Assembly (NCBI RefSeq): GCF_001870905.1
Contig: NZ_LNDC01000169.1
Location: 1-32,056 of the forward strand
Direction of reading: 5' to 3'
DNA: 32,056 bases
Source: Geitlerinema sp. PCC 9228
GTDB taxonomy: Bacteria; Cyanobacteriota; Cyanobacteriia; Cyanobacteriales; PCC-9228
This document shows positions 6,531-12,361 of the stretch, in pieces. A program made the translations under genes and the position numbers. Every line of letters starts with the position of its first letter. The first letter of the stretch is position 1. A model generated the notes under the pieces. That model saw only the letters and a program-made list of their open reading frames with translations, searched no databases and was not told the origin of the DNA.

Positions 6531-7904
6531 CTAGCGGATGTACTCTTTTAAGATGCTGTTGCGATTGGGATGGCGAAGTTTGCGCAATGCCTTGGCTTCG
6601 ATTTGGCGGATGCGCTCGCGGGTGACGTTAAAGGTTTGCCCGATTTCTTCTAGGGTTTTCATGCGACCATCGTCCAAACCATAGCGCAAGCGCAGGACAT
6701 CCCGTTCCCGGGGGCTGAGGGTATCGAGAACGCATTCTAGATCTTCGCGCAGCAAATCTTTGGAGACTTCGTCTTCGGGGGTTTCTCCGTCGGATTCGAT
6801 GAAGTCTCCCAACCGGGAATCTTCTTCTTTGCCAATGGGCGTTTCTAGGGAAATGGGGAGCTGCGCCGACTTGGCAATAAAGCGCAATTTCTCAATGGTC
6901 ATTTCCATGCGCATGGCAATTTCTTCCTCAGTTGGCTTGCGCCCCATTTCTTGAGAAAGAAGTTTGGTGGTTTTCTTGATACGAGAAATGGTTTCGTACA
7001 AGTGAACGGGCAGACGAATGGTGCGGGATTGATCGGCGATCGCTCGGGTGATGGCCTGGCGAATCCACCAAGTTGCATAAGTGGAAAACTTATATCCTTT
7101 TTCGTGGTCGAATTTTTCGGCGGCACGAATGAGTCCCAAACTGCCTTCTTGAATTAAGTCTTGGAAAGACAGACCGCGATTCATGTATTTTTTGGCAATG
7201 GAGACCACCAGACGCAAGTTGGACTGTACCATTTTATCTTTGGCACGCCGCCCGATATGCAAGCGCCGGCGGAATTTGGAGGTATAGGTTTGAATGTGGT
7301 CTTCCCAGCTTTTGGTTAGGGTCAGGCTGGTTTCTTGCGCTGCTGCTAGCAGGGAATCTAAAGCAGAATTTGCCGCTAGAACCCCCAAACAGAGACGGTT
7401 TTGGAGGGTGGCTTGACCCAACTGCGCGATCGCCACCAACAGGGCGTTGACCTTGTCTTCCAATCCCAACTCTTGCAGGCGAACCACCTCTGCCCATTCC
7501 ACATGTTTGGGGTTGCGCCCCAAACCAGCGCCCATATATTCGCGAATGCGTTCTAAAGCCAACAAGTCGGAAATCTGACGTGCCAGTTCGATTTCCTCGT
7601 CAGCCCGCAGCAGTCGGGTTCTACCGATCTCTTGTAGGTACAAGCGAATGGAATCTTCGGTATAGTGTTTTTTCTTATCGCCATCCTCGCTGCGAGATGA
7701 AGCAACTTTGCCAGACTTTTCGTTCTCGAGATCGGTCCGACCCTCTAACAAAGCATTGCCAGCTGCTTCCAAGGTTTCTTTGGATACGGAACTTGGGTCT
7801 TCCTCTGCCTCGTTCTCTAAGATTTGCAATTCTTGTTCGAGAGGTTCGACTGACTCAAACTCAGTCCGATCGATGGTTGCGAGTACGTTATTTGTCTGGT
7901 TCAT
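6531..7904 (-). CDS. sigA: RNA polymerase principal sigma factor SigA (RpoD)
   Basis: This 457-residue sigma-70 protein is the vegetative factor. Region 1.2 begins [16 protein letters not shown]. Region 2 includes [16 protein letters not shown] and the -10 recognition helix around [14 protein letters not shown]. Region 3 contains [12 protein letters not shown]. Region 4 ends with [19 protein letters not shown], and the KEYIR terminus is usual for cyanobacterial group 1 SigA. The ATG at 7904 has a GAGGA ribosome site and the usual [10 protein letters not shown] start. An insert between regions 1.2 and 2 (about residues 120-215) is normal for primary sigma factors. An IsrB element lies about 300 nt upstream in the same orientation and could contribute read-through transcription. 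Confidence 0.95.
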
Positions 7905-8202
7905 GCCGCGTTCCTCATGCTCCTTCTTAAACTTCAACTGCGAAACCGAACAACGATCGTTTTGCTTTTCCCAAAAGCTGCACCCGGACCGTACAGCCAT
8001 TGTGGGGGCTACGGGCTAGACGTAGCCATGTCATTGTCCGTTTGGGGAATATACAAATGGGAGGACATTTGGTGTCAATGGGATGATTTTTTTGTCCACC
8101 TCAATACCTAGCAGTCCTTTCCGAAACTGGGAATGGAACTATGGACTACCATAGGTCAGACCTTTATGATTGTAGCTTTTTTCACCAAAAATGTACGATT
8201 CA
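7905..8202. other. Upstream region of sigA
   Basis: This 298-nt gap between sigA and the IsrB gene must contain the sigA promoter (leftward). No gene or strong terminator is visible in it. The right boundary of the mobile element is probably near 8200. Confidence 0.4.
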
Positions 8203-9432
8203 TCAGAAACCTCCTATCCCTCCCCTACCTCGCGCAGCAGGTGAGGGAGGGATGGGAACGTTAGGCGGCGGGGTTCGATGCCCCGCTGACGAACAATCTC
8301 TTGGGGCGAGCGACCAGAATGCCGCCGTTGCGCGATCGAGAAGTTGAACCTTGGAAGCAGTGAATTGGCCAATTCGCTTCCAATTGAAATCAGAAACCGA
8401 TCCATGGCGTGCCGTGTCGCTACTTACATAGCCCACCGACACTCGGCCTGCTGCCATCTCAGCGACGACCAAATCCCCTTTCCGAAATCCATGCCAGGTA
8501 ACGGTTCCGCCATATTTACGGCGTAGGCCGTTCTTGCCGGGAACGATTAAGTGGCGTTGGCGGCGGGAAATGGGGGGACGCTTAATCACGACGAACGGTG
8601 CCGACGTGATGTTGACCTGGCCCTTCCAGGTGGGGCCGTGATTTCGACCCTGCTGGAACGGACGGTACTGAACCAAGTAGCCACAGGCCAGGGCGATGCC
8701 GTCAACCGCGTGGGTTGGCGGAGTCTGCTCTGATTTTTCCTTAGACTTGATGAGTCCCAGAGCATTTCGGAGCTGAGATGTGCCGTTGCCGTCTTTGGCG
8801 TATCCATGACGGGTGTAGACGGGCGCAATTTGGCCCCTCCGCTCCATGGCGTAGGCTTGCCCTACCATGACCGGGCTGAACCCTTTCGGTGAACGGGCAC
8901 CCTTTCGCTGTGAGGTTAAGTCCACGTCGGCGCGAACTTTCTCGTAACCGATAGCCACAATAGGGAACAGTTTAGACAGTTCCTTGACTACCCGAAATTC
9001 AAGCTCTCGGCTGGCTTTGATGCTGGGAGGTACTTTCTTTTGCCTGCGGTTATCAAACCGCTTTTCGCGGTGATTGAGCTTATTGAACGGCACCTTCCGG
9101 TTGATGCGGCGACTCCGACTCCAACGGCGCAGCACCCGGCGATTGTCCATCCTTTCCCTCACCTTGGGAGAAGGCAGCTCCAAATGAACCTGGAACCAAG
9201 TGGCTTTAGCAGATTGGAACGCAATCCCTGAATAGAGTTTCCCCGGGTCAACGCCAACCACGATGGATTGAGTGTTTCGCCCTGCTGGCTCTGCCAGTAA
9301 ACGGACTGCCTTGATTCGCAGATTGGTTTTGACCCACTCAGCTTTCCCCTGCTCTGCCCACTTCTCGGCGCGAGTGCGCTTTGTGGGCATAAGCGGTGTG
9401 TTGTCGGGCGCTAAAACTGAGATTCGTTGCAT
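8203..9432 (-). CDS. isrB: IsrB-like RNA-guided RuvC nuclease (RRXRR/PLMP protein, no HNH)
   Basis: Starting at the ATG at 9432, this 409-residue protein has the layout of IsrB, the HNH-less relative of IscB and Cas9. An N-terminal PLMP domain (PLMPTKRTRAEKW, about 13-25) is followed by RuvC-I (SIVVGVDPGKLYSG, Asp62), the arginine-rich bridge helix (RRVLRRWSRSRR, about 98-109), RuvC-II (IVAIGYEKVRAD, Glu164) and RuvC-III (THAVDGIALACG, His241/Asp244). Only about 77 residues separate RuvC-II from RuvC-III, with no HNH motif. The C-terminal domain includes GFRKGDLVVAE and FNWKRIGQFTASKVQLL. Characterised IsrB is an omega-RNA-guided nickase; that function is inferred here. The last 30 or so residues read through the terminal hairpin and look non-native. 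A TTG five codons upstream is an alternative start. Confidence 0.9.
   Translation of the reverse strand: MQRISVLAPDNTPLMPTKRTRAEKWAEQGKAEWVKTNLRIKAVRLLAEPAGRNTQSIVVGVDPGKLYSGIAFQSAKATWFQVHLELPSPKVRERMDNRRVLRRWSRSRRINRKVPFNKLNHREKRFDNRRQKKVPPSIKASRELEFRVVKELSKLFPIVAIGYEKVRADVDLTSQRKGARSPKGFSPVMVGQAYAMERRGQIAPVYTRHGYAKDGNGTSQLRNALGLIKSKEKSEQTPPTHAVDGIALACGYLVQYRPFQQGRNHGPTWKGQVNITSAPFVVIKRPPISRRQRHLIVPGKNGLRRKYGGTVTWHGFRKGDLVVAEMAAGRVSVGYVSSDTARHGSVSDFNWKRIGQFTASKVQLLDRATAAFWSLAPRDCSSAGHRTPPPNVPIPPSPAARGRGGIGGF
8216..8253. repeat. Terminal hairpin at the 3' end of the IsrB element
   Basis: ATCCCTCCCCTACCT (8216-8230) and AGGTGAGGGAGGGAT (8239-8253) form a 15-bp stem with two mismatched positions and an 8-nt loop. 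It overlaps the last codons of isrB. Subterminal palindromes of this sort mark IS200/IS605-type ends, and it could also act as a weak terminator, although no T-run follows on either strand. Confidence 0.6.
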
Positions 9433-9447
9433 GGAAGATAATTCCAA

Positions 9448-9926
9448 AACTACAGGTTTCTTCAGCCAGTTAGTACGGTGTTTCTGGGCTTACCCCAATC
9501 CCTGAGATTCCAGAGCCTCACGGAAAATCTTCGATACGTTTGCAAGCCCTGTCGCTTTAGCGCCGGGAGGAAAAACGAACGGTGACTTTAGTCGCCTTCT
9601 CCACCGGAAAGAGGTGCAGTTTCCGCTCTTTCAGTGTTCTAGCCGGAATCGCCTGCCCGGCACAGGGTCATGTTTTCCTCGCCCATGTTTTTTGGGCTGG
9701 TGGAGCTAACGGCACGGCCTGACTCCTGGTAGGGCGTTTAACCGTTAACGGTAGGGCAACCAACACCGAAAGCATTTGTAGGTGCCATGACGCTAAAAAC
9801 GTAGTCCCAAAGGGCGAAGGGCTGGTCAGCTGCCTGAAGCTGGAGGCAGGAAGCCCCAGTGCTTCAGCCGGGGGTGCTGACTGCGACGATGGGGGCAGCC
9901 GTTGGGAGAACTTCTTTCCTCCCAAC
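9448..9926 (-). ncRNA. Candidate HEARO / omega RNA of the IsrB element
   Basis: The region directly upstream of isrB on its own strand holds no credible gene but many hairpins. These include a three-way junction closed by GTCAGC/GCTGAC (9876-9881 with 9825-9830) enclosing a TGCCT/AGGCA stem; CCGTTAACGG (about 9740-9749); GCCC/GGGC near 9684-9700; GGAAA/TTTCC near 9606-9624; GGCGACT/AGTCACC (about 9581-9596); and CGCT/AGCG (about 9553-9562). The segment nearest the gene (about 9465-9550) carries no coding signal. Position, strand and structure fit the HEARO RNA motif, now known as the omega RNA that guides IscB/IsrB, with the guide at its 5' end. The exact ends are uncertain. Confidence 0.72.
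9901..9926. repeat. Palindrome at the 5' limit of the IsrB element
   Basis: GTTGGGAG (9901-9908) and CTCCCAAC (9919-9926) form a perfect 8-bp inverted repeat around 10 nt. It lies at the expected left end of the element, upstream of the omega RNA, and may be the left-end hairpin recognised by a TnpA-type transposase. The RNA guide would be expected just outside or next to it. Confidence 0.5.
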
Positions 9927-10216
9927 CAAGCGATCGCAAGTGTCTCAAAAACCTACGGTTATGATGCCTGGAGATACAGAGCTGCCAACCCAGCGCGGTA
10001 GGGGCTTGAGTGTCGGCAGAATCCATTGGTGCCACTGGAATAGGTGGGTATGGAACCGGGAGAATCTTTTTTCCCTAATCGAGTGCAATAAGACGCCTCG
10101 ATCGAGTTTTAACACAAGCAGAAAAAAATGACATACACCATTGGTTAAAAGGCAAACGATTTTAGAAACAATTCCAATTTCATAGCTCCTTTTGGAGGAT
10201 TGGGGGGCATTGCCCC
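9927..10216. other. Gap between the IsrB element and the CNNM gene
   Basis: This 290-nt stretch has no convincing gene. One rightward frame (about 9943-10128) stays open and reads GDTELPTQRGRGLSVGR, faintly like the ragged C-terminal tails of tnpB products, but this is weak. A hairpin, GGGGGC/GCCCCC, lies at 10203-10217 next to the stop codon of the CNNM gene. Confidence 0.35.
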
Positions 10217-10217
10217 C
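10203..10217 (-). terminator. GC-rich hairpin at the 3' end of the CNNM gene
   Basis: GGGGGC (10203-10208) and GCCCCC (10212-10217) form a 6-bp stem with a 3-nt loop, immediately abutting the TAG stop of the leftward transporter gene. A second small CTCC/GGAG hairpin follows on the left. There is no clear T-run, so termination is probable but not certain. Confidence 0.5.
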
Positions 10218-11887
10218 TATATGCGATCGCCTTTTTCATTTTTTTCTGAAGTTGTGTTGTTCTCCGCGGCGGAACTATCTCCACTCAAGGGGGAAGCATC
10301 CACATCCAGGGGGGATTCCGATGGTTCTTCCGTTTCGGTTTGGGATAACAAATCTGCCCCCTCATCGACCTCCTCGTTGGGGGGTGGTTCTAGCCGCTGA
10401 ATTTCAATTTCTTGCAAGCGCGGTCCTTCTGCAGAAACAACCCGCAGCTGTAAATTTTTATAGCAGAGGGTATCGCCGATGGCGGGGATTTTTTGCAACT
10501 GATAGATTGTAAAACCACCTAAGGTTTGGTACTCATCTGTCAGCGGAAAATCCAGATTTAAAATTTCGTTAACATCTTCAAGATTGGTTTGTGCCTGCAC
10601 CAAAAACGTCTGCTCGTCTAAAATCCGTACTTGGGAGGATTCGTTACTATCCACATCAGAGCCACCAATAATTTGCGCCACCAAATCGTCAATGGTGAGC
10701 AAACCAGCAGTTCCTCCAAATTCATCCACCACAATGGCCATTTCTTGATGGGTACGGCGGCGATCGCCGTGGGAGGGATAGGTGGTGCGCAAACGCTGCA
10801 TTAAAGGCAACAGCTCGCTAAGATAAGTATACTCCGGCACAAAACGTGCTGGTTTCATCCAACTTTCAATGGGGCAGGATAAATCTAAAGTCCCCTCCGC
10901 CAGGGGAGCTGCCAGTTCTTTAAAATCAATAATCCCGCGTACGTCGTCAAGGGAATCGCCAATGGCTGGATAGCGCGAATGACCGGAAACAGCAACTTCT
11001 TGCAACAATTGCTGCACGGTGGCTTGGCAGGGAAGGGCAATAATATTGGTGCGCGGCACCATCACTTCTGCCGCCGAAACATCGCTGAATTTAAACACAT
11101 TGCTGAGCAGTTCCCGTTCTTCAGCTTCCAGACCAGTGGACTCTCGTTCGGTGGCAATAATCAGCTGCAGCTCTTCGGGAGTCACTCGGTTGTGCCATCC
11201 CCCACCTGTATAGCGAATCCCCAGTAGGCGCAGCAACAGGCGGGTGGATTGGTTGAGAACCCAAATAAACGGATTGAAAAAGCGCGCGATCGCTAAACTG
11301 GGGGGTCCCAAAACCTTCGCCAGCTGCTCGGCGTAAAGCATGGCCACTGATTTGGGACACAATTCCCCCAAAACGATTTGCAGGTAAGCTACCAAAAAAA
11401 ACCCAATGGGAATCGACAGGGAATGGGCAAGTACGTGGCTGGTGGTATCCGGCAGCGGAAATTCCATCAAACCGCGCGCCACCAAAACCGCCACTGTCCG
11501 TTCGCCAATCCATCCCAAAGCCAAACTCGACAGGGTAATGCCCAGTTGGGTGGTGGAGAGCAGTCGGTCGATGGTCCGCTGCAAATCCTGAACGGTTTTG
11601 GCACGGACGTCGCCAGCTTTCACTAACTGCTGGATGCGCGATCGCCGCACCGAAACAATGGAAAATTCTGCCGCTACAAAAAAGGCATTGAGGGCAATTA
11701 ACAAAATGACGGATAGAACCCGCCACAAAACATCGGTTTGTCCTAGAGGCGTGGCGCTATCGGGAGAGGCACCTCCCCCAACCGCAGCCACCACCACCAC
11801 TGCGGGAACCGCCATGCGTAACATGAAAGAGGCAGTTCCCCAGCGAACGGGATCTGGTTTCTTATCGCGTGGGTGAGGGTCGCTCAT
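10217..11887 (-). CDS. CNNM/CorC (HlyC) family membrane transporter
   Basis: The 556-residue protein has the order DUF21/CNNM membrane domain, CBS-domain pair and CorC/HlyC transporter-associated domain. Hydrophobic segments occur near residues 22-45, 58-85, 115-140 and 155-185, with the helix motif LNAFFVAAEFSIVSVRRSR and GELCPKSVAM typical of the family. The CBS region begins VMVPRTNIIAL; DEFGGTAGLLTIDDLV precedes the C-terminal domain, which contains DEYQTLGGFTIYQL. Related proteins act in magnesium or cobalt efflux and homeostasis; older annotations call them hemolysins. The acidic, Ser/Glu-rich tail after about residue 500 is likely disordered. The ATG at 11887 is preferred over a TTG at 11908. 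A small secreted-protein gene lies 39 nt upstream on the same strand. Confidence 0.88.
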   Translation of the reverse strand: MSDPHPRDKKPDPVRWGTASFMLRMAVPAVVVVAAVGGGASPDSATPLGQTDVLWRVLSVILLIALNAFFVAAEFSIVSVRRSRIQQLVKAGDVRAKTVQDLQRTIDRLLSTTQLGITLSSLALGWIGERTVAVLVARGLMEFPLPDTTSHVLAHSLSIPIGFFLVAYLQIVLGELCPKSVAMLYAEQLAKVLGPPSLAIARFFNPFIWVLNQSTRLLLRLLGIRYTGGGWHNRVTPEELQLIIATERESTGLEAEERELLSNVFKFSDVSAAEVMVPRTNIIALPCQATVQQLLQEVAVSGHSRYPAIGDSLDDVRGIIDFKELAAPLAEGTLDLSCPIESWMKPARFVPEYTYLSELLPLMQRLRTTYPSHGDRRRTHQEMAIVVDEFGGTAGLLTIDDLVAQIIGGSDVDSNESSQVRILDEQTFLVQAQTNLEDVNEILNLDFPLTDEYQTLGGFTIYQLQKIPAIGDTLCYKNLQLRVVSAEGPRLQEIEIQRLEPPPNEEVDEGADLLSQTETEEPSESPLDVDASPLSGDSSAAENNTTSEKNEKGDRI

Positions 11888-11926
11888 GCCAAAGGGTGCG
11901 AACTGCAAAGTACATGCTAATGGATA

Positions 11927-12288: not shown

Positions 12289-12361
12289 CCAGGGTTGGCC
12301 GAGCGGTTTAGGCAGCGAACTCATAATTCGCCTCAGGCAGGTTCAACTCCTGCACCCTGGA
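12289..12361 (+). tRNA. tRNA with CAT anticodon (probably tRNA-Ile2, lysidine type)
   Basis: A complete 73-nt cloverleaf: acceptor CCAGGGT/ACCCTGG, D-stem GCC/GGC, anticodon stem GCGAA/TTCGC around loop CTCATAA, and T-arm GCAGG/CCTGC with loop TTCAACT. CCA is not encoded. Anticodon CAT can be methionine or, after TilS converts C34 to lysidine, the AUA-reading isoleucine tRNA. The loop and the D-arm pattern GGCCGAGCGGTT resemble plastid trnI-CAU, so Ile2 is favoured over elongator Met. Confidence 0.9.

Follow-up and report, generated by a model that had tools for sequence, protein, structure and literature searches.

An IsrB locus in Geitlerinema sp. PCC 9228 most likely broken by an IscB-type RNA element

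IsrB proteins are described as occurring without an adjacent TnpA, and the original IscB report is said to describe standalone omega RNAs that act with IscB in trans. The closest described systems are CwIsrB of Crocosphaera watsonii and DtIsrB of D. thermocuniculi, which have the same HNH-less architecture (PMC9581776) as the IsrB encoded in the window, i.e., the whole stretch of 32,056 nucleotides of Geitlerinema sp. PCC 9228 DNA that was analysed. The RuvC and TAM-contacting residues and the NTGA-like flank are also alike, whereas the cognate RNA of CwIsrB and DtIsrB reaches the start codon (PMC9581776); the window has lost the 5' two thirds of its counterpart, with a HEARO element found instead. 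In the HEARO nucleases (PMC9755519), the HEARO RNA (RF02033) is associated with an HNH-bearing IscB. The window RNA matches the whole of this model and has the ends of an IscB element located on another contig (C98) of the same genome. Unlike in the HEARO nucleases, however, no IscB frame follows the HEARO RNA in the window, and the 360-bp element ends before a remnant of the IsrB leader. A third comparison is provided by the standalone omega RNAs that work with IscB in trans, as cited in PMC9581776. The Geitlerinema genome similarly has many short copies whose left flanks differ, as well as a full IscB at another place, and use in trans is predicted here, but one of these copies sits inside another OMEGA element, unlike the standalone omega RNAs. 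Among the literature matches listed (titles and abstract openings), none describes a HEARO element within the RNA of an IsrB, which is no proof of absence.

The gene had been read in a preliminary description as an IsrB of 409 residues, lacking HNH and lying between sigA and a CNNM gene without a TnpA of its own, and all of these points hold. The protein is matched by the Pfam family RRXRR (136.8 bits), and DtIsrB (8dmb) is both its top PDB match by sequence (E 4e-33) and the first fold match of its AlphaFold2 model (E 5.4e-28; mean pLDDT 75.8). The RRXRR/PLMP-RuvC region carries the D, E and H/D active-site residues, and their earlier numbering (D62, E164, H241, and D244) is correct. The interval from RuvC-II to RuvC-III is without HNH, and neither the Pfam nor the NCBIfam profile search gave an HNH family at E ≤ 1. 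The NCBIfam family guided_IscB reached 83 bits over the first half of the protein, which is below its cut-off of 175. Residues R353 and Q356 align with R323 and Q326 of DtIsrB, which are the TAM-reading residues according to PMC9581776. Relatives are numerous (2309 at E ≤ 1e-20 among 7996 candidates scored) and include Crocosphaera proteins named RRXRR, which are 57-58% identical. The neighboring sigA/rpoD (6531-8000) and CNNM (10217-11908) genes are, like the IsrB gene, on the minus strand, and the eight TnpA-like matches in the genome are all located elsewhere. The possibility that this IsrB is the sole RRXRR protein of the genome was ruled out by the full IscB on C98 and several contig-end fragments. 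The coordinates of the features are given in Table 1.

Table 1. Features of the IsrB locus and the adjoining HEARO mini-element (positions in the window).
Feature	Position	Strand	Basis or remark
IsrB open reading frame	8203..9432	-	409 aa, ATG at 9432, stop TGA at 8205-8203; translation, RRXRR, DtIsrB match
HEARO RNA (RF02033), whole model length	9667..9881	-	94.7 bits against a gathering score of 83
Complete 360-bp IscB-type HEARO mini-element, left end GTCAGCACCCCC, right end ..GAAGATTTTCC	9522..9881	-	Ends common to 20 other short copies
GTGA directly 3' of the mini-element, fits the NTGA target-adjacent motif	9518..9521	-	Flank seen at other copies
Segment of 20 nt in the left flank, predicted guide of the HEARO RNA	9882..9901	-	Upstream flanks vary between copies
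Leftover 3' part of the omega RNA leader native to IsrB, extending to the start codon	9433..9521	-	Leader alignment
Imperfect hairpin, IsrB right end, doubles as C-terminal tail coding	8218..8250	-	Read from sequence
ATGA that follows the right end of IsrB	8200..8203	-	Relatives' right ends also precede ATGA
Conserved promoter-like block upstream of sigA, adjoining the IsrB right end	8158..8200	-	Present in 6/8 relatives

A covariance-model search of the upstream region, as the preliminary description proposed, gave a HEARO match above the gathering score, and this was the sole match at E ≤ 1 within 7900-10300. The IsrB protein and the HEARO RNA are thus each as first read, yet they most likely do not form a pair; the locus appears to be an IsrB locus broken by an IscB-type RNA element. 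The claim that the gene has its "own upstream RNA" is not supported, as the HEARO RNA belongs to a complete repeated element of IscB type and the relatives carry a different RNA. The genome (4.80 Mb, 223 contigs) contains 43 HEARO matches at E ≤ 1e-3, of which 22 are above the gathering score. Ends were classified for the 30 stronger of the 43 loci. A search for the right end identified 21 short copies (271-486 bp) among the 30 loci, including the window copy, whose near copies are mostly 361-376 bp in length. In 16 of the 21 short copies an RTGA lies no more than 2 nt away from the right end, and in 13 it is exactly GTGA. On the other side, the flanks of the loci show no relationship before the GTCA start that they have in common. 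In blastn comparisons against the window, most IsrB-like copies gave alignments that begin at 9881 and stop at about 9518. The HEARO RNA of the window therefore lies in a separate repeated element with its own boundaries.

The C98 element clarifies the type to which this element belongs. Its HEARO is 84.9% identical over 218 columns to that of the window, its right end shares 93% identity over 73 columns with the mini-element, and its HEARO RNA stops 19 nt before the ATG of an HNH-bearing IscB (guided_IscB, 431 bits; HNH, Pfam, 46 bits). Given this likeness in both HEARO and right end, the window HEARO goes with the IscB type, and its RNA would most likely act in trans, serving the IscB that another part of the genome encodes. 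The segment predicted to act as its guide (Table 1) was given a length of 20 nt, borrowed from the DtIsrB RNA (PMC9581776). This genome contains at least 21 short HEARO elements, whose left flanks vary, together with one full IscB that has HNH (C98). It is possible that the short elements constitute a large trans-acting guide set for IscB.

The RNA that belongs to the IsrB gene was identified from its relatives, which were found at E ≤ 1e-10 in 38 of the 100 genomes searched. A 5' leader of approximately 217 nt, with the left end TTCAATGACC and a hairpin, is common to the IsrB copies in four of these genomes (G008, G096, G037, and G079), and the same leader type also occurs in internally deleted IsrB copies of cyanobacterium ESFC-1. 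The three internally deleted elements of this cyanobacterium (L070, L071, and L072) have the right end, and two of the three retain the leader and the left end. Alignment of 24 IsrB leaders yielded 33 consensus pairs, of which 29 covary with changes on both sides, and an RNA model (R1) was built from this alignment. R1 matched 6-54 nt upstream of 42 out of 44 IsrB N-termini in 20 relatives' genomes, 25 of these starts being outside and 17 within the set from which the model was trained. It missed only a broken copy (G039) and a 35% relative (G060). No HEARO at the gathering score was found at the relatives' IsrB loci (0/33), some of which have little upstream DNA. The 3' ends of group II introns occur at or within the IsrB leaders of four relatives (L082 1246-1325, L089 2684-2779, L095 1419-1495, and L098 2274-2351), which suggests that IsrB leaders may be a recurrent landing place.

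Comparison with these leaders reveals that the window has retained only the 3' part of its own. The remnant shares 81-85% identity over 77-78 aligned positions with the seven nearest leaders, and the homology begins immediately behind the GTGA of the mini-element, in alignment column 142 of 241, and continues to the start codon. Positions 121-202 of the 206-nt leader of L071, for example, match window 9448-9529. The mini-element abuts this leader stump exactly. Among the 33 consensus pairs, 4 are complete in the window, 15 have lost one partner, and 14 have lost both, so that 29 are short of one or both partners, and the remnant scores 14.3 bits with R1. Both ends of the mini-element, its GTGA flank, and the remnant are directly observed. 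The remnant is all that is left of a cognate omega RNA immediately upstream of the start codon, and the left end TTCAATGACC with its hairpin is absent from the locus. Moreover, this left end and the 5' leader part of the window-type IsrB were not found anywhere else in the assembly, and a relative's leader queried against the whole genome recovers just the 3' part near IsrB.

Based on the lack of the 5' two thirds of its own leader and the presence of a HEARO mini-element in their place, the locus likely makes no guide RNA for itself; we assign a probability of approximately 0.8 to the reading of an open IsrB frame whose own RNA has lost its 5' two thirds, with the 360-bp IscB-type mini-element there. 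What counts against a loss of function in cis is that the frame is open and that all RuvC residues and the equivalents of the TAM-reading residues (R353 and Q356) are retained. A potentially active RNA-guided nickase locus, as first proposed, is unlikely in cis, given the missing 5' two thirds and the separate HEARO element. An intact, self-guided locus with HEARO as the native RNA, the reading suggested by a 94.7-bit match upstream on the same strand and a protein without HNH, is highly improbable, as this HEARO copy has the boundaries of an independent repeated element, with the 3' stump of the native leader between it and the frame. These boundaries and the leader remnant rule out HEARO as the native RNA of the IsrB. 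More generally, a covariance-model match upstream of an IsrB or IscB gene is not proof of a working pair, since the RNA may stem from another element, which is relevant to the mining of OMEGA systems from genomes.

A sequence of events may be proposed for the broken locus. The ancestral IsrB would have bound an RNA of about 200 nt read from its own leader, with a guide taken from the DNA left of the IsrB element, and would have nicked insertion sites next to NTGA that were still empty. A TnpA acting in trans probably inserted the HEARO mini-element into this leader, upstream of a GTGA. As the left flank of the mini-element is not leader sequence, a plain insertion is insufficient and something more must have happened. 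The left stretch may then have been lost either by recombination of two mini-elements or by a transposition that joined the left end of the mini-element and the right end of IsrB. An assembly mis-join at a repeat is unlikely; the window mini-element shares no exact match longer than 61 bp with the 29 other copies. The region upstream of sigA in relatives shows no conservation of the stretch to the left of the junction. A search for an empty site of the composite, with the two flanks joined (400 nt), matched only the window and short pieces in the 100 relatives' genomes, all of which came from outside the genus.

The same structure could be read differently, with the HEARO RNA having functionally replaced the old RNA so that the mini-element and IsrB form one chimeric element with an IscB-type guide. 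RNA and frame follow each other in order on one strand, the composite is unit-like with a sharp left end (mini-element) and right end (IsrB, ATGA), the frame is open, and nine relatives' leaders match HEARO weakly (32-69 bits, under the gathering score). These weak matches suggest that HEARO and the IsrB leader RNA are distant kin and that cross-use is thinkable. This explanation is nevertheless unlikely. The HEARO RNA stops 234 nt short of the IsrB start codon, inside a separate element, compared with 6-54 nt for the leader RNA in the relatives; a HEARO-IsrB pairing was seen at none of the 33 relatives' loci; R1 gave nothing at E ≤ 1 on the 22 HEARO loci searched with it; and the terminal hairpins of the mini-element and IsrB are unlike in sequence. 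In addition, the protein is accelerated, including its arginine-rich stretch. A natural RNA swap between OMEGA families, in which the transposase would have joined an IscB-type left end and an IsrB right end and the nickase carries, and perhaps uses, a cousin's guide, is also doubtful. The locus is a candidate case of RNA-module exchange between OMEGA elements and a natural experiment on whether IsrB/IscB-type proteins can borrow the guide RNA of another family.

The acceleration is visible in several comparisons. At the 134 columns conserved at ≥90% among 119 homologues, the window IsrB deviates at 11, against a median of 3 and a single deviation in its nearest relative (P0004), and 6 of the 119 homologues are as deviant or more. 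The changes include the arginine-rich stretch, with R105S and R119L at columns that are R in all 119 homologues, and a one-residue insertion near 327 is seen in none of them. The tip branch of the window IsrB is 0.142 versus 0.053 for its sister, with three of 28 tips longer. Relative-rate tests against P0004 gave p values of 1.5e-6 to 0.002 with six outgroups, while 3 of 7 control pairs also had p < 0.05. Pairwise comparison with G008/G096-type copies gave a dN of about 0.19, with dS saturated or not computable. The protein has thus likely, although not provably, been drifting since the loss of its RNA.

Another explanation for the open frame is that the IsrB is still in use, guided in trans by IsrB-type RNAs from elsewhere in the genome. 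A search of the genome with R1, in which 150 of 532 first-look candidates were scored, identified full-length copies at C58:19080-19295 (92 bits) and C153:1946-2153 (76 bits) and partial copies at the contig ends C189, C146, and C148 and at C131, and standalone RNAs that work with IscB are cited in PMC9581776. Such guiding is improbable, however, as the 5' part of the subfamily's own leader was found nowhere else in the assembly, the other RNAs are diverged in type, and one of them (C153, L068) precedes an IsrB remnant. No relative of the window IsrB protein was found after the C58 copy (L113). The RNA set at the contig ends probably has its own, unassembled IsrB: the end of C151 (L067) is the C-terminal part of another IsrB and bears the same hairpin as the C189/C146/C148 group. 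This points to a second IsrB, present in several copies, with an unassembled middle. The ends of this second IsrB are L067 (C151), L114, L115, and L117 (C146, C148, and C189), and L116 (C131), and the middle is seemingly absent from the assembly.

In contrast to its left end, the right end of the IsrB element is in place, with the hairpin followed by an NTGA flank (ATGA, read from 8203 to 8200), and the right ends of the relatives bear a similar hairpin and then ATGA. The last A of the stop codon is part of this ATGA. The promoter-like block that adjoins it was compared across eight relatives' sigA loci, and two of the six matches are weak (E 0.015). The conservation of this block suggests that the IsrB element likely landed just upstream of the probable sigA promoter. 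The window also contains a tRNA gene at 12289-12361 (+) (Rfam, 53 bits).
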